From the IMG/VR virus record IMGVR_UViG_3300006805_000069, positions 1 through 37,844 of that record: a stretch of 37,844 bases of DNA, one strand, 5' to 3'. The stretch comes from a virus. Shown in pieces: positions 10,941 to 37,844 of the stretch. The number at the start of each line of letters is the position of its first letter. Position 1 is the stretch's first letter. Under the pieces are notes generated by a model. It did not search any database, had not been told where the DNA came from, and saw nothing but the letters and a program-made list of their open reading frames with translations. A program made the translations under genes and the position numbers.

Positions 10941-11852
10941 TTACGAGCTGGGAATCGCGCCGTAGAGAGCGCGCGGGTCGTTGTAGAAGAACCCAAAGCG
11001 CTCGTAGCCTTTGACGAGCAGGTTGTCGGTGACGAAGTCGACCTGCATGTCGGTTTCGTAGGGAACGCGTTCGAGGTGAATGAACCCGTCGATCGACGTC
11101 TTGAGATACCAAGCGCGCTGGTTCGTGAGGTAATCCCAAGCGATGAACTTGGTGATACCGCCCGATAGCGACTGGATCGCATTAACGTCGTTGTTCGCCG
11201 TGCCAGGACGCAGTTCGCTCTTGAGCAGGCGGATAGCCACCTTTTCAAGCTGCAACGGAACGACGAGGGTTTCAGCACGGGCATAGATCTTCAACCCGGC
11301 TTCGTCGACGAAGTTCTGACGAACAGCCGTCATGCCATCCAACAGTGACCCTTCGTTAAGGTCGAGGTCGACAGAAGGACGATTGCCCCAGACGCCACCA
11401 TCGTAGGGATGCGAGGTTGAGAGCAGAGCCACGCCGTCGCCACCAAGGTTGGTATCGTAGGTCGTCGCGTTGTTGAAGATCGCGGCGGCCTGACGTTCCT
11501 TGAACTGGTTGAACGCCTTCGAAAGACCCAGAGCCGTCGGCTTGAACTGAGTCTTGTAGATGTTGTCGTCGATCGCCTTGCGGGTGATCGCGTAACCGCG
11601 GCCAACTTCCAGCGGTTCCATGCTCCACTTGAAGCGTTCGCCAGAGTTGTTGTCGAACGAGGTGGCGCCGCCTTCCGTCTTCAGATCGGGGAGGGACTGG
11701 TAGCGAACGCTAACCGTCTTTTCGATCTGGAGATTGGACTTGTGCTTTTTAAACACCTGTCCGTAGAAATTGGGGAGATCCTTATACTCTCCCGTAACGT
11801 CCATGAGTCCCGGCAACAGGAGGTCACGGATTTGACCGAGTGCAATAGCCAT
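10941..11852 (-). CDS. Major capsid protein
   Basis: 303 residues. The sequence has the pattern of HK97-fold major head subunits: an N-terminal helix (GQIRDLLLPGLMDVTGEYKD), then FKWSMEPLEVGRGYAITRKA, the spine-helix-like FKPTALGLSKAFNQFKERQA, then LLSTSHPYDGG. The C-terminal part reads AWYLKTSIDGFIHLERVPYE followed by VKGYERFGFFYNDPRALYG. It follows the scaffold and decoration genes, as expected for the coat gene. A GGAG ribosome-binding site is 10 bases upstream of the ATG. No protease or covalent cross-link residues can be assigned by eye. Confidence 0.8.
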   Translation of the reverse strand: MAIALGQIRDLLLPGLMDVTGEYKDLPNFYGQVFKKHKSNLQIEKTVSVRYQSLPDLKTEGGATSFDNNSGERFKWSMEPLEVGRGYAITRKAIDDNIYKTQFKPTALGLSKAFNQFKERQAAAIFNNATTYDTNLGGDGVALLSTSHPYDGGVWGNRPSVDLDLNEGSLLDGMTAVRQNFVDEAGLKIYARAETLVVPLQLEKVAIRLLKSELRPGTANNDVNAIQSLSGGITKFIAWDYLTNQRAWYLKTSIDGFIHLERVPYETDMQVDFVTDNLLVKGYERFGFFYNDPRALYGAIPSS

Positions 11853-15563: not shown

Positions 15564-17678
15564 TCAATGCACTCCAGGGCCAGGGGGAAGACCAGTTTGC
15601 GGCTGGCCTAGGGGAATTCCAAGGGTATCGGACACAATGCCCTGGCTGGTCGGATGCACCGCGAGGTTTCCAGCCAGCTTGAGCTTTTCAATTAGGAGCT
15701 TCGATTCACGATCCGCCGCCTTGTCTTTCGACGTCGTGATGATCTTCATCTTTTCGGTTTCAGTCTTGGCCGCGATGATCGCCATGTTCGGATCGATCGG
15801 AGTTTCAGCCGGTGCCTGCGGAGGCGCGAAGAACTGTGCCGGGTTGTCAAAGCCCATCATCTCAAGCGCCGCGGTATCGACGGCCTTAGCATCGTACAGT
15901 TGCGGGTTTGCACCCTGCAACGTCTTAAGGCCCTGGAGCTTCATGAGACGATGCATGTGGGATGGAGTGTTGGGATCGGCGCATGGAACCAAGTCATGAT
16001 CTTCAAGCGCTTGGCGAAGTTTGGCTTCGTCCCACTGCCCCGTCAGCTTCTTGTTGTAACGCCACAGCGATTCAGGATCTTCGGAGAACAGGTCTTTGAA
16101 GAGGCGCAGTTCTTCTGACTGCGATTGATGCAGACCCTTGTGAACCGAGCCTTCGACTTTGGTTGCCTGTTCGATCAGGGCAAGCGTGGTCCCGACCGGC
16201 GCGTTCTGCTTACCTTCGCCTACGCCGACTTCAGCCGTTCCACCCACGCGTTGACCAACTTCCCGGAGCGAGGCCACGAGCTGTTGCATTGCAGGGCCAG
16301 CCTCCTTGTAAGGAAGCGCCATGATCTGATCTTGCAGCTTTTGTTGCGAGTTGCCTTGGAACGCCGCGCCGCCACCGGCAGGAACGCGGAAGTTGTTCGT
16401 CATCTGCTTACCGCCAGCGGTTTGCAAATAGATGAAGCCGGGAAAGTTCGCGAGCATCCCAGCGTCCAGCATCTCACGAATACCAGCCGTGATCGCCGTT
16501 GCCATGTTGCCGAGGATGTGGAGCAGGCCAATCCCGTAAAACCCAAAGCCTTCGATGTAGCCGTACTTTACGAAGACCTTTTTCGCGACCGGGAATTCAT
16601 CGTCTTCTTCAGACCAATTGCGCGTGATCTCAAGCACCTGCATCGATGACTTTTCGATCGTCACGCGGTAGGGGAGCGGCAAGCCTGTCGGATCGCCTTT
16701 CTTGTCCGAGTGCTCAAGCCCTTCGATGTCGAGTTCGCAATAGCACTCGTAAATCTCATAGTCGTTGTCTTCTGGCCGATCTGCATTCTCGCGAACGCCG
16801 GTCACGTCGCTCATCTTCTGGTCGACGACGCTTTTAGTTGGCGTTGGGGTGTGAAGGTCGATATTGCGGTACACCCCGAGGATTTGCATGCGCTTGAGCA
16901 CGCTCTTGCGCATGCGCAGTTGATGCGTGACGCGCGAGGCCGATGCGAGGTCAATCGCGTTGTTCGAGACGATCAGATCCTTAGCGTCGATGGCAACCGA
17001 GACCGGGCGGTTCTTGATCGGGTCGTGGTAGACTTTCTTGAACCCAGAGCCGCCGAACCCGGTCATCAACAGCATGCGCTTCGTGTCGGGATAGTAGCTG
17101 CTTTCCGTCGTGGTCAGATACGCGTTCATGTCCCGTTCAAGCGTCTCTGCTAGTTTGTCAGCATCGGTCGATTCACCACCATCGTTGCGCACCTTGACGG
17201 GACCGGCAGCAGGCAGGAGTTCAGCCGATGCGTTCGCCATGAAACGAATGCAGGCTTCCAACAAAATAGGATCGCGGACCTTTGACATGACGAGCCCGCC
17301 GCCGTCGGCCGAAACATCGGACGAAGGGCGTTCGAGCTTGAGCCCAAGCAGATCAATCCCCCGAGCGCGATCTTCAAGCCATTGAGACCGGCTTTCATCG
17401 TCCGATTGGATCGCCTGAATCAACTCCATCCCTATGCGGGAGAGTTCCATCGGATCAATCTTGTCGACGAGGTTGGAGCCGAAGTTGCCGTCTTCTTTCG
17501 CTTGGAACCGTTGCGGGTTGAAGTCGATGACCACGCCGCCGTCATCCGTCTCGATTTCAAGCGTGCCTTCGTCTGTGATCTTCGACGCCGTGATTTCGTT
17601 ATCGTTGTCGGTTTCACGTGGATCAATCACGATCACGTCTGAGGTGGGAGGCTTCTTGAACGGGAGCATTTGCGCCAT
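15564..17678 (-). CDS. Portal protein (P22-like)
   Basis: 704 residues, the size of P22-type portals. After an acidic N-terminus (about 1-75) comes VRDPILLEACIRFMANASAE (about 135-154). Then follow MLLMTGFGGSGFKKVYHDPI with the DLIVSNNAIDLASASRVTHQ segment, a long core and GYIEGFGFYGIGLLHILGNM (about 376-395). Next is a crown-like helical region (VEGSVHKGLHQSQSEELRLF), then a Pro-rich barrel end. It forms the dodecameric DNA gate at one vertex. The start overlaps the previous stop (TAATG at 17676-17680). A 14/16 match to the parS consensus lies in its 5' part at 17610-17625. Confidence 0.85.
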   Translation of the reverse strand: MAQMLPFKKPPTSDVIVIDPRETDNDNEITASKITDEGTLEIETDDGGVVIDFNPQRFQAKEDGNFGSNLVDKIDPMELSRIGMELIQAIQSDDESRSQWLEDRARGIDLLGLKLERPSSDVSADGGGLVMSKVRDPILLEACIRFMANASAELLPAAGPVKVRNDGGESTDADKLAETLERDMNAYLTTTESSYYPDTKRMLLMTGFGGSGFKKVYHDPIKNRPVSVAIDAKDLIVSNNAIDLASASRVTHQLRMRKSVLKRMQILGVYRNIDLHTPTPTKSVVDQKMSDVTGVRENADRPEDNDYEIYECYCELDIEGLEHSDKKGDPTGLPLPYRVTIEKSSMQVLEITRNWSEEDDEFPVAKKVFVKYGYIEGFGFYGIGLLHILGNMATAITAGIREMLDAGMLANFPGFIYLQTAGGKQMTNNFRVPAGGGAAFQGNSQQKLQDQIMALPYKEAGPAMQQLVASLREVGQRVGGTAEVGVGEGKQNAPVGTTLALIEQATKVEGSVHKGLHQSQSEELRLFKDLFSEDPESLWRYNKKLTGQWDEAKLRQALEDHDLVPCADPNTPSHMHRLMKLQGLKTLQGANPQLYDAKAVDTAALEMMGFDNPAQFFAPPQAPAETPIDPNMAIIAAKTETEKMKIITTSKDKAADRESKLLIEKLKLAGNLAVHPTSQGIVSDTLGIPLGQPQTGLPPGPGVH

Positions 17679-19718: not shown

Positions 19719-22685
19719 TCATACTTCATACAGCGGGTCTAGTCGTGTCGTTCCGTGCTGCGCTTGGATGGCGCGAACTTGGTCTCTTTCGTCCCGGCGA
19801 ATGGCAAACCCGACTTGACGCAAGTGCTTGAGCGCTTGCGTCGTCGAGTCCGTCAAATCCTTGAAGCGACCATTCGGGAACATCGCGGTTTCGTCAATGA
19901 CGAGCTGTGCCCAATCACGAGGAATCAACTCACTTTCCCGATCTTTCGGGTTTCGGTGGCTGACCGGAACCCCAACCATACCGTCTGCGAACAAGTGGAT
20001 CTGCGCAACGGCACGCGCGTACTTGTCGCCGCCTTTTGGATCGATGAGTTCAACGCCCCAGCCTTCGTTAGCGTACAGCCGACGCATCTCGTTGCCAACG
20101 TCGATCCCCGAGGCTTTCGCTTCGATCAGGAGCATATCGACGTGGTGACGTTTGCACTCATGCGCCACCCACTCAACTAGGCCCCACTCTTTCTTGGCGC
20201 GGGCTTTGTAATCTAGTTCGTGTTCGCCGGGCTCCCGCTCGACATCGGCGCCGTGGATCTCCAAATGCTTGCGCCAAGCGCCGAGCATCATGATCTTTGG
20301 GTTGTCCCGCTCATCAACGTAAGCGCCCCACACCGTGAAGCCTGAAGGATCGTTGCGTTCGTTCTTCGTGTAAGCAGAGTCCAACGAAGCAACCACATAC
20401 TCCATCGGCGGAGGTGGAGCCCCGATCGGCACATGGATATACTGCCACCAGTCGCGTTTAAACAACCCGCCACCACGAGGCTCAGGCGTTTGTTGATACT
20501 GACCAGCCCACATGAAGGCGTTGCGCCGGAAGCGCTGTAGAACGTTCTCCCCGTAGCGCTCAGGCCATGCCAGCTCGCCAATCTCTGTTCGAGGATCTTC
20601 CCAAATGATCTTGCGACCATTTTTGTCTCGCCCGAGGCACGTTTGGCAAACGCGGCCGTCAAATTCCATCGGAATTAAAAGGTGTACATAGTCGTCTTCG
20701 TTTTCGATGACGTGGCCAGACACATCACAGTTATGGGCAGTTATGAGGCCACATACAAAATCGTGACACGGAGTTTCAAGGTCATAAACCTTACCTGCGT
20801 ATGTTGATCTCTCGATGTTAGATATGCGAACAAAAAGCTGTTTTCCATCAGCAGACAATCTATTCGCCTTGTATCGCGGACGAACACCAGGCTCATCACA
20901 CAACCAAGGGGCAGACCAGAAGTCGAACCTAAGTTCATAGGCTTGGTTCGTTGATAATTTAACCTCACGCCCCTGTTGTGGGCCACTTGCAATTACGCAA
21001 ATCCCACCTTTGCCAGTTTGCCCTTTTAAGACGCCAGCAACAATGCCCATGCGCAGCATAGCTCTCTGAAGGCTTGAGAGCAGAGCAAGTGATACAGACC
21101 CAATACGAGCTGTGTTACCAATAGTAGACCCGTCACCGCGCCAGTATCCTATAACAAGCTCACGTAAAAATTCTGGGTCCAGCCTAACTGCCCAATCAGG
21201 CAAGCACTTATTGAGCGCCCCCGTCCCGAAATTGTTCAAAAATTTCGCAACTTGGTATGACGTGATGAAAACGTTGGCTGTGCTAAATTTACTGAAACTT
21301 AAATGAACAGGTATTCCATAGTCTGCGAACAAGTCTCTGATGTCTTGAACATAATCAAGTTCATCCTTGTGAAACGTAAGCACGATGCGACTAAGGCGTG
21401 TTCGACCTTCACCGATGCACCCCTCAGCCAACCAGTAACCCACGAAACGCCAGAACCTAGGATCAGCAAGTATTGCCTCGTCGATTGACCGGCATTTCTT
21501 TTTGGCAATCCCAAATGCTACCAAATATTGGTCAACCTGCTGGCGGTACTTCAAGCCAACAATTTCGGCTATCTCGCGGCTGCTATGGCCAGCATCCACA
21601 AGCGGCTGAAAAATCTCTTTCGAAAGATGAGTTCGGGTTCCTGTTGTTGTCCCCCTGAAAGTCGCAGGGACATCCTCGTCTTCCTTCGGCCATATAGCTT
21701 GCAACTCAGCAGTCGTTGTCTGACGCTGATCAACTGAAATTATAAGCTGATGGCTTCTCGTTAACTTTCCAGCCTCCACCCATCCATCCGATGTCAAAAT
21801 AGGATGGTTTGACGTGACACGCAAAGGCTCGCAATAACCAGATGCTCGAATACTTATTGTCTCTCCTACGTAGTCGCGGCTTGCGACAGCAACGACCTTT
21901 TGAATTCCTTGGCTGGTGACAACTGGATCACCTGCCCGAATTTCATCTGCTCTAATGATTGACATGTCGGACAGAATACCAGAGTCCGGCAATAAACACT
22001 CATTAACTCTTTGCATAATAACAATAATCGCAGACTTTTGAAGGTCGTTTAGACGGTTCGACATTGCCTCATCAAACCATCTTACAGTCTTAACGCGAAT
22101 AACGTCGCTTTCCCCATCCGCAAGGTTGTGGGGGTCGTCACATAGGACGCGATCAGCGCGCTCGCCCGTACCTACTCCGCCCACGGATGAAGCAAACTTC
22201 CACCCAGTTTTATCGTTCGACACCTTGACGACACCAACGCCCGTCGTCTTGAACTTGTCGCCCCAAAGCTCTTGGAACTTCTTCGACTGGATGATGTCTC
22301 TGAATTTGCCGTTGTCACGTTCCGTCAGATGAGAGCCATACGAAAACGCGATGTACCGCATAGAAGTGAGACCCATCGGCCCCCACTCCCAAGCAGGAAA
22401 AAAAACGTTACAGATCAACGATTTACTGAAGCCCGGCGGAACGTTGATCAGAAGGCGCGTTATGTCTCCACGAGTGACAGCTTCAAGGTGAGCGCAAATC
22501 GCCCTAATCGCCCACCCATCAACGAACTTCGTCTTAGGCTCTAAGATTGGCCAGAAGTATTTGACGAACTCGTAAAGCCCACCGGGAGCCTGTTGTTTTG
22601 CCCGGTTCTTACGGCGCAACAACTCTTTCTTGATCTCAATGCGTTTTAATAAAAGCTCGCGGCGCTTAGCCTTGAGAGACGACAC
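19719..22685 (-). CDS. terL: Terminase large subunit with intein
   Basis: 988 residues as encoded; removal of the intein (residues 230-652) leaves 565, normal for TerL. ATPase: Walker A-like NVPPGFSKS (81-89), Walker B VLCDDP (180-185), coupling motif IIVIMQRVNE (220-229). Nuclease: YVVASLDSA with D769, LLIEAKASG with E855, and FKDLTDSTTQA around 941-951. The protein pumps DNA into the prohead through the portal and cuts the concatemer. It lies next to terS and upstream of portal, as usual. Splicing is required for activity because the intein separates the ATPase motifs from the rest. Confidence 0.92.
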   Translation of the reverse strand: MSSLKAKRRELLLKRIEIKKELLRRKNRAKQQAPGGLYEFVKYFWPILEPKTKFVDGWAIRAICAHLEAVTRGDITRLLINVPPGFSKSLICNVFFPAWEWGPMGLTSMRYIAFSYGSHLTERDNGKFRDIIQSKKFQELWGDKFKTTGVGVVKVSNDKTGWKFASSVGGVGTGERADRVLCDDPHNLADGESDVIRVKTVRWFDEAMSNRLNDLQKSAIIVIMQRVNECLLPDSGILSDMSIIRADEIRAGDPVVTSQGIQKVVAVASRDYVGETISIRASGYCEPLRVTSNHPILTSDGWVEAGKLTRSHQLIISVDQRQTTTAELQAIWPKEDEDVPATFRGTTTGTRTHLSKEIFQPLVDAGHSSREIAEIVGLKYRQQVDQYLVAFGIAKKKCRSIDEAILADPRFWRFVGYWLAEGCIGEGRTRLSRIVLTFHKDELDYVQDIRDLFADYGIPVHLSFSKFSTANVFITSYQVAKFLNNFGTGALNKCLPDWAVRLDPEFLRELVIGYWRGDGSTIGNTARIGSVSLALLSSLQRAMLRMGIVAGVLKGQTGKGGICVIASGPQQGREVKLSTNQAYELRFDFWSAPWLCDEPGVRPRYKANRLSADGKQLFVRISNIERSTYAGKVYDLETPCHDFVCGLITAHNCDVSGHVIENEDDYVHLLIPMEFDGRVCQTCLGRDKNGRKIIWEDPRTEIGELAWPERYGENVLQRFRRNAFMWAGQYQQTPEPRGGGLFKRDWWQYIHVPIGAPPPPMEYVVASLDSAYTKNERNDPSGFTVWGAYVDERDNPKIMMLGAWRKHLEIHGADVEREPGEHELDYKARAKKEWGLVEWVAHECKRHHVDMLLIEAKASGIDVGNEMRRLYANEGWGVELIDPKGGDKYARAVAQIHLFADGMVGVPVSHRNPKDRESELIPRDWAQLVIDETAMFPNGRFKDLTDSTTQALKHLRQVGFAIRRDERDQVRAIQAQHGTTRLDPLYEV
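20730..21998 (-). mobile_element. Intein with LAGLIDADG homing endonuclease in TerL
   Basis: 423 codons in frame. The N-terminal residue is Cys230 (block A CLLPDSGIL). Block B is RVTSNHPIL with T291 and H294. LAGLIDADG motifs are FVGYWLAEGC (E421) and LVIGYWRGDGS (D518). Block F is KVYDLETPCHDFVCG (632-646). Block G ends His651-Asn652, followed by Cys653 as the +1 extein residue. A HTH-like stretch at 367-397 (SSREIAEIVGLKYRQQ) may aid DNA binding. All splicing and nuclease residues that I can recognise are intact. Splicing joins MQRVNE to CDVSGH, restoring a usual TerL sequence. Confidence 0.9.
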
Positions 22686-34480: not shown

Positions 34481-34731
34481 TCGGCGGCCTCTTGATATAC
34501 GGCGATTGCCTTACGACCGGTTGGAATGCTATCTAGATGCTCGACTTCTGAAACATGGTCCGGCACGTCGATGACGATAGATACAGCCCCGGCTTTCATC
34601 GTGACCGGCTCGCGGTCGAAAAAATCGTACCCGTCTGCCGTCTTGATGATTTCCAGTGCCATCCGAGTTGCACCTTCCAGCGGTTCCCCGGCCGGACCCG
34701 TCAAACCATGTGCATCGCGATTATTGGTCAT
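34477..34731 (-). CDS. Small acidic protein
   Basis: 84 residues from the ATG at 34731 with GGGG upstream and an ATGA overlap. MALEIIKTADGYDFFDREPV, TMKAGAVSIVIDVPDHVSEV. Beta-rich; no family recognised. Confidence 0.5.
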   Translation of the reverse strand: MTNNRDAHGLTGPAGEPLEGATRMALEIIKTADGYDFFDREPVTMKAGAVSIVIDVPDHVSEVEHLDSIPTGRKAIAVYQEAAE

Positions 34732-34850
34732 CGTTCGTCCCCCATGTGGAAATTCATCGCATCGTTCACGCCACGAACCGCGAAAACAATCAAAGCCAAC
34801 ACCGCAAACCCTAGAAAGGTCTCTGCAACTTCGATCCAATTCAACGTCAT
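34728..34850 (-). CDS. 40-residue membrane protein
   Basis: MTLNWIEVAETFLGFAVLAL then IVFAVRGVNDAMNFHMGDER: one transmembrane span with a short charged tail. ATGA overlaps at both ends (34847-34850 and 34728-34731) show that it belongs to a coupled series of small genes. Confidence 0.6.
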   Translation of the reverse strand: MTLNWIEVAETFLGFAVLALIVFAVRGVNDAMNFHMGDER

Positions 34851-35029
34851 GATCCGAGATCCTTCGCGTTCGCCAACGCGGCAAGCGCATCGCTCATTTT
34901 TCTCGATAGTTCCATGCTCAAAACAGACCGAACAACCAAGCCTTCAATCAACGGGCACGTCGCAACGAACGCATCGCCTTGATGCTCTATTTTGACGGGT
35001 AGATTGACGGTGATGGTGTTGACGGTCAT
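34847..35029 (-). CDS. HicB-like / DUF1902-like small protein
   Basis: 60 residues. ITVNLPVKIEHQGDAFVATC, PLIEGLVVRSVLSMELSRKM has the strand-turn-strand then helix layout of HicB N-terminal domains ('i.veke.dgyvA.cPelpG'). There is no DNA-binding tail and no hicA beside it, so it is not a standard toxin-antitoxin pair. Coupled by ATGA to its neighbours on both sides. Confidence 0.55.
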   Translation of the reverse strand: MTVNTITVNLPVKIEHQGDAFVATCPLIEGLVVRSVLSMELSRKMSDALAALANAKDLGS

Positions 35030-35322
35030 TCGACGTTTTCCATCTCTCGCGATGATGCATAGTCGCTAAGCGGCGTACCAGCCATACCAAGCGCATGCAG
35101 GTAGACGTCGACGATTGATTCTTCTTCTTCGCGTTCGATCTTTGATTTTTTGCGCATTCGAACGATGGTGCGTATCGCCTTGACGTCGAAGCCCAACCCC
35201 TTCGCAAATATGTACTTATCCGAAATATCGTCACAGAGAGCTTTCTTCTCGGCTTCCAAAGTTTCGATCTGTTCCACGATTTGGCGAAGTTGATCTTGAG
35301 CGCTGGCAGGGAGGATTGTCAT
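35026..35322 (-). CDS. GapR-like (DUF2312) DNA-binding protein
   Basis: 98 residues. LRQIVEQIETLEAEKKALCD, DISDKYIFAKGLGFDVKAIR, TIVRMRKKSKIEREEEESIV and DVYLHALGM match the DUF2312/GapR family almost throughout. Caulobacter GapR is a nucleoid protein that clamps overtwisted DNA ahead of replication and transcription and stimulates topoisomerases. The phage copy could take part in replication of its DNA or disturb host GapR. Coupled by ATGA to the methyltransferase gene. Confidence 0.85.
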   Translation of the reverse strand: MTILPASAQDQLRQIVEQIETLEAEKKALCDDISDKYIFAKGLGFDVKAIRTIVRMRKKSKIEREEEESIVDVYLHALGMAGTPLSDYASSREMENVE

Positions 35323-36977
35323 CGCAGTGTCTCCAAAATTGCTTGTCCGATCATTTCCGGGATTTGCGGGAGGATGGTGTTGCCGGTGGCCTTAACTCGG
35401 TCCATCCAGTCGGGTAGCCCATCATCCACTCCCGAAAGCGCGGGTTCATCCGGCCAGACCGATTGCCAGCCATCTTGACCAGCGTTTCGTTGAGCGGCCT
35501 GGAGTTCTTCGAATGCGTCTCGTCCGAGGCCATCCCGGAACGCCAATCGCGAGCCGTAGGGGTCGGCAAGGTGCCAGCGTGCGCGCTCTCGTATCCGCGC
35601 AAAACTGTCAGGAGGTCGCCGCGTCCGCCCTTGTCGGCATCCGTCGCGCGTGGTGTGGGGATCAGGCCGTTGGCCTTCCAGGCTTCGATCGATCCGTGGC
35701 TGTCCGGCAAGCCCCACTTGTTGGCTCGCAACGTCGGCAGCATTTCCGGCAGCTTGCGGTGGTGCAGCGTGTCGTTCAAGTTCGACATGCCGTGCCCCTG
35801 TGCCTTCTTGGCGGCAATGTAGTCCAGACTGTGCGGCGGGAAGTAATCGCGTGCTTGCGGTGTCGGCAGCAGATCCGGTAGACCGAAGTGCGTCAGATAC
35901 GCCCCCATGCTCCATCCGTGTTTGCCTGCAATCTGGCTTGGAGTCGCCTTGGTCTGACGGTTCTCGTTCGGACTGGCCCTTGGCGTGGGCAACAATGTAG
36001 ACCCGGTCGCGCTGGTGAGGGGCGCCGATGGCGCACGCCGGTACGCAATCCCATTCAAGATCAAACCCGCTCTCGGCCATGTCCCCGAGAACGGTTCCCA
36101 TCCCGTCTGATCGATGAGTGATCGTTGCCACGTCCGCCAAACGCCGCCCACATGATGGACAGGCTGAACATTCGGCCCCTTGGCGTTCAAAAGATGAATT
36201 TTCGCTTTGATCTGCGCTGCTTGCGCCAACGCTTCCGACGTCCAAATTCGTCCCAACTTGTTCGGGGTCATCGGCATCGTCGATACGATTTCCGACAACA
36301 AAATAAGGAGTGACGCTTGTTCCTTCTTTAGAACCAGATGTGCTCCGACTTGACGAAGTAGGCTTGCAGAGCTTGGCCCCTGCAAACTCCACTTGGTTGC
36401 TGCTTCCCAATGTGCTGTCTTCTCCCGAACCGAATGAAGGGACCCTCCAAATTGGTCCTTCAACATAGTCAACAGTTCGATTGCCTTTATCGACATCCCG
36501 ACGTCTATACGTGGAGATATGCTGCGCTTGTTCGTGGACTGCACCACAGTCAAACACCCTTCTCCATCCAATAGGCCAGCCACATAGGCATCGCTCAGCG
36601 GGCCTTGTTTCCTCTCCTCTGGATGACAGAAGTGCTGCCACGTTCTCGACGATTGCGTGGCGCGGTCGTACCACGCGAAGGGCTCGCACCAGTTCCCGGT
36701 ATAGTCCTGAACGCTCCCCGGCAAGTCCGGCGCGGCGTCCGGCGAGCGACACGTCTTGACAGGGGAAGCCTCCGACAACGACATCGGCCATTCCTTCGGT
36801 AAATTCTGCGGTCGTCACGTCGTCGAGGAGCGGCACGTGCGGCCAGTGCTTGGCCAGCACGCGCTGACAGAATTCGTTCTGTTCACAGAAAGCGACAGTT
36901 TCAAATCCCCCAGTCCTTTCAAGACCGAGGGAGAAACCACCTATGCCACTGAACAAATCAAGCACCCGCAGTTTCAT
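35319..36977 (-). CDS. C5-cytosine DNA methyltransferase with internal insertion
   Basis: 552 residues. Motif I DLFSGIGGFSLGLERTGGF (7-25), motif IV GGFPCQDVSLAG (69-80, catalytic Cys73), motif VI ENV (111-113), motif VIII GAPHQRDRVYIVA (318-330) and motif X VKATGNTILPQIPEMIGQAI (528-547) are present. Between VI and VIII about 170 residues (114-283) have no match to the family; they are the frame-0 reading of the LAGLIDADG insert. The enzyme would methylate cytosine, probably to protect phage DNA from host restriction. Whether it folds with the insert is doubtful unless the insert is removed at RNA or protein level. A second long ORF overlaps it in the +1 frame. Confidence 0.8.
   Translation of the reverse strand: MKLRVLDLFSGIGGFSLGLERTGGFETVAFCEQNEFCQRVLAKHWPHVPLLDDVTTAEFTEGMADVVVGGFPCQDVSLAGRRAGLAGERSGLYRELVRALRVVRPRHAIVENVAALLSSRGEETRPAERCLCGWPIGWRRVFDCGAVHEQAQHISTYRRRDVDKGNRTVDYVEGPIWRVPSFGSGEDSTLGSSNQVEFAGAKLCKPTSSSRSTSGSKEGTSVTPYFVVGNRIDDADDPEQVGTNLDVGSVGASSADQSENSSFERQGAECSACPSCGRRLADVATITHRSDGMGTVLGDMAESGFDLEWDCVPACAIGAPHQRDRVYIVAHAKGQSEREPSDQGDSKPDCRQTRMEHGGVSDALRSTGSAADTASTRLLPAAQSGLHCRQEGTGARHVELERHAAPPQAAGNAADVASQQVGLAGQPRIDRSLEGQRPDPHTTRDGCRQGRTRRPPDSFARIRERARWHLADPYGSRLAFRDGLGRDAFEELQAAQRNAGQDGWQSVWPDEPALSGVDDGLPDWMDRVKATGNTILPQIPEMIGQAILETLR
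35351..36784 (-). CDS. Overlapping +1-frame ORF with LAGLIDADG domain
   Basis: 477 residues, starting at 36784 with AAGGA upstream. Residues 33-50 (CEPFAWYDRATQSSRTWQ) are interrupted; then comes a LAGLIDADG-type domain (YVAGLLDGEGCL at 67-78, then SISPRIDVGMSIKAIELLTM, LKDQFGGSLHSV, LRQVGAHLVLKKEQASLLIL). WRTWQRSLI then resumes (216-224), followed by GWEPFSGTWPRAGLILNGIA and repeats of LPTPxARD (for example LPTPTARDWRSGM) and the end NPRFREWMMGYPTGWTELRP. I recognise this pattern in deposited phage proteins, often annotated as methyltransferase. Whether it is translated here is inferred from conserved features, not shown. Confidence 0.5.
   Translation of the reverse strand: MSLSEASPVKTCRSPDAAPDLPGSVQDYTGNWCEPFAWYDRATQSSRTWQHFCHPEERKQGPLSDAYVAGLLDGEGCLTVVQSTNKRSISPRIDVGMSIKAIELLTMLKDQFGGSLHSVREKTAHWEAATKWSLQGPSSASLLRQVGAHLVLKKEQASLLILLSEIVSTMPMTPNKLGRIWTSEALAQAAQIKAKIHLLNAKGPNVQPVHHVGGVWRTWQRSLIDQTGWEPFSGTWPRAGLILNGIAYRRAPSAPLTSATGSTLLPTPRASPNENRQTKATPSQIAGKHGWSMGAYLTHFGLPDLLPTPQARDYFPPHSLDYIAAKKAQGHGMSNLNDTLHHRKLPEMLPTLRANKWGLPDSHGSIEAWKANGLIPTPRATDADKGGRGDLLTVLRGYESAHAGTLPTPTARDWRSGMASDETHSKNSRPLNETLVKMAGNRSGRMNPRFREWMMGYPTGWTELRPPATPSSRKSRK
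36126..36643 (-). mobile_element. 510-bp LAGLIDADG insertion in methyltransferase gene
   Basis: The 8-bp ACGTGGCA (minus strand) occurs at 36643-36636 and again at 36133-36126, exactly 510 bases (170 codons) apart. The conserved ENVAALL of the methyltransferase reappears as ADVATIT, and RTWQ of the second frame is duplicated. Between them the second frame encodes a single-motif LAGLIDADG domain. The length keeps both frames open. No canonical intein ends or group I intron core were recognised. Confidence 0.65.
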
Positions 36978-37083
36978 TCCTCATCACCATCGTCTTTCAC
37001 GACTGGTGCCAGCCAATAGGCCATCTTCTCACCATCGCAGATAAGAAAACCATCTGGTTTCCTGTCAGTATTGTCATTATCGT

Positions 37084-37087
<4 letters not shown>
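36974..37087 (-). CDS. 37-residue acidic protein
   Basis: MNDNDNTDRKPDGFLICDGE then KMAYWLAPVVKDDGDEE. It overlaps the upstream gene (37084-37087) and the methyltransferase start (36974-36977) as ATGA at both ends, so it is part of the coupled set. Function unknown. Confidence 0.55.

Positions 37088-37844
<757 letters not shown>

Follow-up and report, generated by a model that had tools for sequence, protein, structure and literature searches.

A viral DNA stretch of 37,844 nucleotides (IMG/VR record IMGVR_UViG_3300006805_000069, referred to in its full length as “the window”) carries on its minus strand a gene for a C5-cytosine DNA methyltransferase within which a second, long open reading frame (ORF) is nested in the +1 frame. 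The frame of the methyltransferase is here called frame 0 and its product alpha, and the product of the nested ORF is called beta. A preliminary description of the window had reported the two ORFs, a plausible ribosome-binding site for the +1 ORF, the catalytic motifs of a C5 methyltransferase in frame 0 and, in the +1 reading, the elements GTWPRAG, repeated LPTPxARD and MNPRFREWMMGYPTGWTEL. All of these have been located, the repeats of the LPTP type being five in number. The features of the locus are as follows.

35319..36977, minus strand: frame 0, C5-cytosine DNA methyltransferase catalytic chain (alpha), 552 amino acids (Pfam, PHROG, fold match)
35351..36784, minus strand: +1 nested ORF (beta), 477 amino acids (ORF list, PHROG, constraint counts)
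36792..36796, minus strand: AAGGA, Shine-Dalgarno-like site 7 nt 5' of the +1 ATG (36784)
36786..36977, minus strand: frame-0-only zone (motifs I-III), used as control, without +1 constraint
36753..36773, minus strand: motif IV, GGFPCQD, in frame 0; the +1 reading here is the start of the nested protein
36102..36617, minus strand: 172-codon (516 nt) insertion between frame-0 ENVAALL and MGTVLGD, absent from the related loci L068, L070 and L075
36176..36616, minus strand: LAGLIDADG homing endonuclease domain, read in +1 and joined in frame to the nested ORF at either end (Pfam, PHROG, identity)
36003..36026, minus strand: motif VIII, GAPHQRDR, in frame 0
35546..35992, minus strand: putative target-recognition region, with five repeats of the LPTP type in +1 and their shadow in frame 0
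35969-35992, 35846-35869, 35720-35740, 35639-35662 and 35546-35569, minus strand: positions of the individual LPTP-type repeats in +1
35393..35449, minus strand: motif IX-like MNPRFREWMMGYPTGWTEL in +1
35346..35384, minus strand: motif X, GNTILPQIPEMIG, in frame 0, overlapping the final codons of the +1 ORF

Frame 0 is identified as a C5 methyltransferase by the Pfam family DNA_methylase (PF00145; E 6.4e-35, 121.6 bits against a curated cut-off of 22) and by phrog_363 (E 1.6e-68). It holds motifs I, IV (PCQ), VI (ENV), VIII and X, and lacks motif IX. The +1 ORF consists of an N-terminal part that lies over motifs IV-VI, the LAGLIDADG insertion, and a last part made up of the LPTP repeats and an end that resembles motif IX; its middle matches phrog_5046 (E 2.3e-22) and its later part phrog_1008 (E 6.9e-28). 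For nested chains no Pfam family was found in the three that were tested. As regards the labels of the PHROG families, phrog_1008 and phrog_16143, which both match nested +1 chains, are labelled “DNA methyltransferase”, and phrog_5046, which matches a LAGLIDADG protein, is labelled “HNH endonuclease”.

Openness and constraint of the two frames

Relatives of the locus were collected in two viral samples, the first with only the frame-0 N-terminus as query (the best 80 of 393) and the second with the frame-0 chain of a distant relative (the best 80 of at least 600). Both samples comprise the best-scoring loci rather than random draws, and some contigs are common to both (e.g. L103 and L146). In 155 of these 160 loci, all sampled through frame 0, the +1 frame is open from near motif IV to past motif VIII. 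The expected number of stops was obtained from a null model in which synonymous codons are shuffled within each gene, and stops were counted from codon 60 to codon L-30 in the 57 of 80 loci that are complete, at least 200 amino acids long and non-redundant. The overlap zone of these genes contains 19 stops in +1, compared to 229 ± 10.6 in the shuffles, and 46 of the 57 genes have no +1 stop at all, compared to a shuffle mean of 1.9 and a maximum of 6. There is no depletion in frame +2 (515 stops, 505 in shuffles) or in the +1 frame before codon 60 (118 stops, 114 in shuffles). Loci of low GC content (38-43%; L107, L109, L121, L124 and L131) have 0-2 stops in +1, where 6-9 are expected. A closed +1 frame is found in L172, L190 and L199, which were flagged as having motif IX in frame 0, and a negative example is provided by the dcm gene of a small Shigella plasmid, the one locus read from a search of plasmids with a class B query that returned thousands of distant C5 methyltransferases; it has no nested ORF (28 stops in +1, the longest ORF being 39 amino acids).

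Start signals for the nested ORF are more frequent than the shuffles predict. A Shine-Dalgarno match of at least 5 stands ahead of a +1 ATG in 55 of 147 loci, compared to 8.6 ± 2.8 in synonymous shuffles, and when evaluated per ATG such matches accompany 72 of 253 +1 ATGs and 13 of 486 control ATGs.

The separation of selection on one frame from selection on the other requires that each single-base difference be classified by its effect in frame 0 and then in +1, as silent (S), non-silent (N) or stop-creating (X), and that the counts be expressed per opportunity; an SN change, for example, is silent in frame 0 and non-silent in +1. Over motifs IV-VIII only the 143 loci with an open +1 frame were taken, so that the absence of changes to a +1 stop in this zone is given by construction. 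In 49 disjoint pairs, the SN rate over these motifs is 0.042, compared to 0.096 in the frame-0-only zone, a ratio of 0.43 (95% interval 0.36-0.52), and, as fractions of the same control, NN/NS is 0.17 (0.06-0.39) and SN/SS is 0.13 (0.04-0.28); the pattern is the same in 695 non-independent pairs. When the window is compared with 13 relatives from the top of the first sample, SN per opportunity changes from 0.107 in the frame-0-only part to 0.051 in the overlap, NS from 1/1900 to 47/2758 and NN from 1/3192 to 13/4560, and in all 91 pairs within the window's clade the third bases of fourfold sites are identical in 1653 of 2429 cases in the overlap and in 418 of 1234 before it. Because the substitution classes shift in this manner relative to the frame-0-only zone, both frames are seen to be under purifying selection over motifs IV-VIII, and this includes the window's own clade.

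The counts past motif VIII were made on loci classed “IX in +1” or “alpha-trunc”, with 31 viral loci classed “neither” and 3 classed “IX in f0” excluded, and the result was the same with a filter on +1 amino-acid identity, which favours +1, and on unfiltered DNA alignments. In 23 disjoint, DNA-aligned pairs of the window's class there are 7 SN changes in 2288 opportunities, 116 NS in 2187 and 11 NN in 4034. Of 235 opportunities for changes that are silent in +1 and create a stop in frame 0, none is used, where the NS rate would predict about 12, while in two pairs of relatives whose frame 0 has ended after motif VIII the same type of change is found in 7 of 111 (Fisher p 3e-4). In this zone the main protein-coding frame is +1, and frame 0 is preserved only in being free of stops, which lets ribosomes reach motif X. 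The gene is thereby divided into three zones, one in which frame 0 alone is constrained, one in which both frames are constrained (IV-VIII), and one past motif VIII in which +1 is constrained and frame 0 is merely stop-free. The preliminary description had suggested either genuine dual coding or an overprinted ORF of wide occurrence, and had named constraint confined to the methyltransferase frame and a +1 ORF broken in close relatives as observations that would speak against it; neither is seen, and the proposal is borne out by the loci with open +1 frames, the scarcity of stops and the constraint in both frames.

The AlphaFold2 model of alpha agrees with a post-VIII frame 0 that is merely stop-free. 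Block-mean values of the predicted local distance difference test (pLDDT) are 73-98 for residues 1-120, 76-94 for residues 291-330 and 82-95 for the last 22 residues (motif X onwards). The remainder is mostly below 50, with values mainly of 25-50 in the insertion and in the LPTP shadow. The model matches M.HhaI with a Z-score of 24.0 and a root-mean-square deviation of 2.5 over 212 aligned residues, so that alpha is predicted to form the large domain of M.HhaI, with the low confidence falling in the insertion and in the LPTP shadow.

Distribution of the motifs between the frames

The C-terminal end of the +1 product, (L/M)NPxWVEWLMGFPxGWT, resembles C5 motif IX, and an IX-like motif is found in +1 in 119 of the 160 viral loci and in frame 0 in 6. 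Classes of motif partition were assigned to 149 of the 160 viral loci and to 72 of 80 genome loci. In DotProduct (L002) and xhp1 (L005), the LPTP repeats and motifs IX and X are all in frame with motifs I-VIII, and Inspectinfecti (L001) has LPTP, IX and X in frame for the C-terminal part only. A profile of 54 nested chains matches the LPTP-IX region of single-frame relatives with an hhalign probability of 97 (E 1.2e-10). In the mycobacteriophages Stasia and Backyardigan the catalytic gene stops after motif VIII, and a second gene in +1, which begins 26 or 23 nt before the end of the catalytic gene, carries LPTP, IX and X; the Stasia record names both genes DNA methyltransferase, and in Backyardigan the second is a “hypothetical protein”. 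Frame 0 also ends after motif VIII in L243 and L281, where LPTP, IX and X are all in +1, and the actinobacterial genes L279, L285 and L304 have an LPTP-like start in +1 and motifs IX and X in frame 0.

Since the placement of LPTP, IX and X differs among these relatives, the boundary between the frames must shift between lineages. Four partitions are observed. Frame 0 may hold all three elements; it may keep IX and X while the LPTP start lies in +1; it may keep X alone, LPTP and IX being read in +1; or all three may lie in +1. The comparison with single-frame and split relatives indicates that the +1 product is probably part of the same enzyme as the frame-0 product, and the position of LPTP between motifs VIII and IX suggests that it may be the target-recognition region. 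The preliminary description had set the LPTPxARD repeats against repeats of the ADPYGSRLA type in frame 0. The two do overlap, but the derivation runs the other way, with ADPYGSRLA as the shadow of LPTPxARD.

A further group of loci (L251, L256, L270, L274, L283 and L291) has a near-textbook motif IX (RRLxPSECEKLQGFPxGWTE) at the end of the +1 ORF and a different region in frame 0 between motifs VIII and X; this class fits the published motif partition of the two-polypeptide enzyme M.EcoHK31I better than the window does.

The LAGLIDADG insertion

The insertion is flanked on either side by degenerate copies of the ENV sequence GAGAACGTGGCAGC. In its +1 reading the LAGLIDADG motif AYVAGLLDGEG lies at 36557-36589, and Pfam LAGLIDADG_1 (PF00961) scores 20.8 bits, just below the cut-off of 23.1. 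The nuclease of the window shares 43% identity with the nested endonuclease annotated in Gordonia phage Inspectinfecti, which occupies the same place in the same frame and over which frame 0 is open too. As a query, the +1 reading of the insertion retrieves one relative, L145, a stand-alone double-LAGLIDADG ORF, and the frame-0 reading gives 8 pattern matches and no relatives. The middle of the 477-codon +1 ORF (approximately residues 57-203) is thus a LAGLIDADG homing endonuclease, which the earlier account did not contain.

Across the nuclease region frame 0 has no stops, compared to a shuffle mean of 5.07, and none of 2000 shuffles had zero; in six phage loci an open frame 0 is unremarkable when taken alone (P of zero stops 0.04-0.44). 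Read in frame 0, the insertion contains CLCG near its start (window 36579-36590) and CPSCG near its end (36147-36161), and the insertions in L001, L002, L315 and L316 have CLCG and CPDCG at matching places, with a +1 reading that differs at the second. This pair could be a zinc-knuckle closure of the loop, or a coincidence. The annotators of Gordonia phage Ailee (L315) and of Sitar (L316) were unsure about the nested endonuclease: gene 5 of Sitar is annotated with the note “delete”, and the RefSeq methylase of Ailee is joined from two pieces.

A probable two-polypeptide enzyme, its rivals and its precedents

The reading that is preferred here, with a probability of roughly 0.8, is that a single stretch of DNA codes for both chains of a two-polypeptide C5-cytosine methyltransferase and has taken up a LAGLIDADG gene. 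Alpha would supply the catalytic large domain with motifs I-VIII, and would continue through a long linker, stop-free and otherwise unconstrained, to a motif X that packs back onto the domain. Beta would be initiated independently at the internal ATG near motif IV, with its own ribosome-binding site, and would supply the small domain that is absent from alpha, with motif IX and the LPTP repeats as a putative target-recognition part. Alpha and beta would presumably come together as the active enzyme. The LAGLIDADG gene, presumed capable of homing, would have entered the locus downstream of the ENV motif, in the reading frame of beta and not in that of alpha. Since the insertion is a multiple of three in length and free of stops in the alpha frame, alpha would have a floppy loop of 172 residues and beta a fused nuclease. 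In broader terms, phage C5 methyltransferases appear, on a balance that is favourable though well short of firm, to be a large, old and hardly recognised dual-coded class in which the parts of the enzyme are dealt between the frames at boundaries that shift from lineage to lineage, and in which the window's nuclease invades the arrangement and is tolerated by both frames.

Several observations weigh against this two-polypeptide reading. There is no +1 ATG near motif IV in 26 of 156 loci, and in 3 there is no ATG, GTG or TTG. The enzyme of the window might work less well with a loop of 172 residues in it. The AlphaFold2 model of a single nested chain (L185, 54 rows) is poor, with a mean pLDDT of 57, and the profile of nested chains had no match among solved structures (best E 0.36). 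Finally, the canonical methyltransferases of class C, which have motif IX in frame 0 (e.g. L137, L262 and L289), keep a +1 ORF without IX and have no +1 stops between motifs IV and VIII in all 3 viral loci and in 10 of 11 genome loci; as their frame 0 has its own motif IX, the nested chain cannot always be there to supply one.

Class C also provides the case for regarding the nested protein as real but overprinted on the methyltransferase with a separate function, for example as a regulator or a nuclease subunit. Its +1 ORF, about 155 codons long (approximately codons 54-210) in L137, L262, L268, L271, L273, L277, L280, L289 and L307, ends in YFLSPNAATGILRRADRMGRNLFPPLRSALEIL and is matched by phrog_16143, and in L309, a Bacteroidia record with a closed +1 frame, the methyltransferase carries the class C domain as a C-terminal fusion. 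The same fusion, however, ties the domain to the enzyme. In the window's class motif IX is in +1 and there is none in frame 0, and in L001, L002 and L005 the LPTP-IX region is in frame with the enzyme, so that a separate function is considered improbable, although it is the strongest of the rivals. The retention of the class C ORF and the fusion in L309 do imply that nested chains may have further roles.

A slightly less probable alternative is that ribosomes undergo a programmed frameshift from frame 0 into +1 near motif VIII, and back before motif X, producing one chain with motifs I-VIII, LPTP, IX and, where needed, X. In L243 and L281 a single +1 shift would indeed complete the enzyme, and the joined methylase of Ailee also speaks in its favour. 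The openness and conservation of +1 and its start signals, an ATG with a Shine-Dalgarno site, about 100 codons upstream of motif VIII are nevertheless left unexplained, the window's class would need two opposite shifts, and the records of Stasia and Backyardigan annotate two genes.

As for the insertion itself, introns and inteins carry LAGLIDADG nucleases, and the element might accordingly be an intein or a self-splicing intron, and not a free homing endonuclease gene that lies out of frame. This is very improbable, because no Rfam intron family was found at E<=5 over 34500-37844 (the sole match is a weak snoRNA outside the insertion), Pfam detects no intein domain in either frame, the 516 nt less the nuclease leave little space for a ribozyme, and frame 0 is open through the nuclease to an extent that none of the 2000 shuffles reproduced. 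The weakest alternative, that frame 0 is the sole gene and that its conserved, GC-rich sequence forces +1 to be open and conserved, applies to some +1 sequence that is a mechanical image of conserved motifs (MSxSEASPVRT of GGFPCQD, NGIAYRR of EWDCVPA), but as an account of the locus it is in effect ruled out, because shuffles that keep both frame 0 and codon usage produce 229 stops where 19 are seen, because low-GC loci are depleted as well, and because after motif VIII the conserved frame is +1.

The two-polypeptide reading has precedents. The gene for the small subunit of M.EcoHK31I is nested within that for the large one in another frame. Of the two polypeptides, the large carries motifs I-VIII, X and the predicted recognition domain and the small carries motif IX, according to the relevant passages of PMC3404938. 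The window resembles this enzyme in that motif IX is absent from the large chain and present in the second. It differs, as far as the published description of M.EcoHK31I permits comparison, in that the LPTP region lies in the nested chain: opposite LPTP, the window's frame 0 is unconstrained except against stops and is modelled with low confidence, so that the putative recognition region is not found in the large chain. In M.AquI, motifs I-VIII and the distal part of the enzyme are on separate polypeptides (same passages, PMC3404938). Stasia and Backyardigan, and likewise L243 and L281, are similar in having IX and X together in the second chain, whereas in the window the catalytic chain retains motif X and the second gene lies wholly within the first. 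In the GenBank record of Paenibacillus phage Lily, gp63 is described as “g62 internal gene”, DNA methyltransferase, and gp62 and gp63 are tabulated as DNA-cytosine methyltransferases in the portion of PMC6070908 consulted; by sequence this pair belongs to the same class as the window, but without the endonuclease insertion, and the cited passages offer no evidence of coding.

Arsenault, Gosselin and Gogarten (2025) described an out-of-frame HNH nuclease (ShiLan domain) in actinobacteriophage methylases with an open host frame, and the passages available from their paper report that neither introns nor inteins were detected, and refer to a solitary LAGLIDADG in these genes (PMC11855218). The window is similar to the cases in those passages in that a homing endonuclease lies out of frame inside a methylase whose own frame is stop-free, with no intron or intein detected in library searches. 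It differs in that the ShiLan HNH has its own stop, while the window's LAGLIDADG reads on into the nested beta ORF, and in that the host gene is itself dual coding, a nested methyltransferase subunit not being mentioned in the PMC11855218 passages. The Gordonia and Mycobacterium phage methylases L001, L002, L315 and L316 have a nuclease of the same family at the same place after ENV, in +1 and with frame 0 open, but in these the nuclease ORF is closed by a stop codon, and frame 0 contains motif IX (as read in L001 and L002).

A search of the literature on nested phage methyltransferase genes returned only mentions of M.EcoHK31I, the table of P. larvae phages and the ShiLan paper, and since most subscription papers lie outside such a search, the absence of others carries little weight. 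The partition in M.EcoHK31I together with the “g62 internal gene” of Lily means that the kind of arrangement is already known; what is new, as far as the searches go, is its breadth, the codon-level evidence, the placement of the putative recognition region in the nested chain of this class, and the presence of a homing element within a pair of this type.

To our knowledge, long same-strand overlaps with constraint in both frames are rare outside small viruses. The present family offers well over a hundred alignable examples with built-in controls, namely a frame-0-only zone, a +1-only zone, and single-frame and split relatives, and because the examples are many and the controls built in, overprinting and the two-frame coding of one enzyme become directly testable. 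Many phage annotations of “DNA methyltransferase” would then describe half an enzyme, and an unannotated nested ORF would be the place to look for its recognition specificity; if the two-polypeptide reading is true, the catalytic and recognition chains and a selfish nuclease are all encoded by one stretch of DNA.

The window as a whole is a tailed-phage genome or a fragment of one, with matches to a major head protein, a portal and a terminase at 10941-11852, 15564-17678 and 19719-22685, respectively; no tRNA genes were found in it. At the end of the contig (window 37723-37841), about 10 copies of a 12-bp tandem repeat, GACCTGAGACCA, lie inside a 5'-open ORF on the minus strand.

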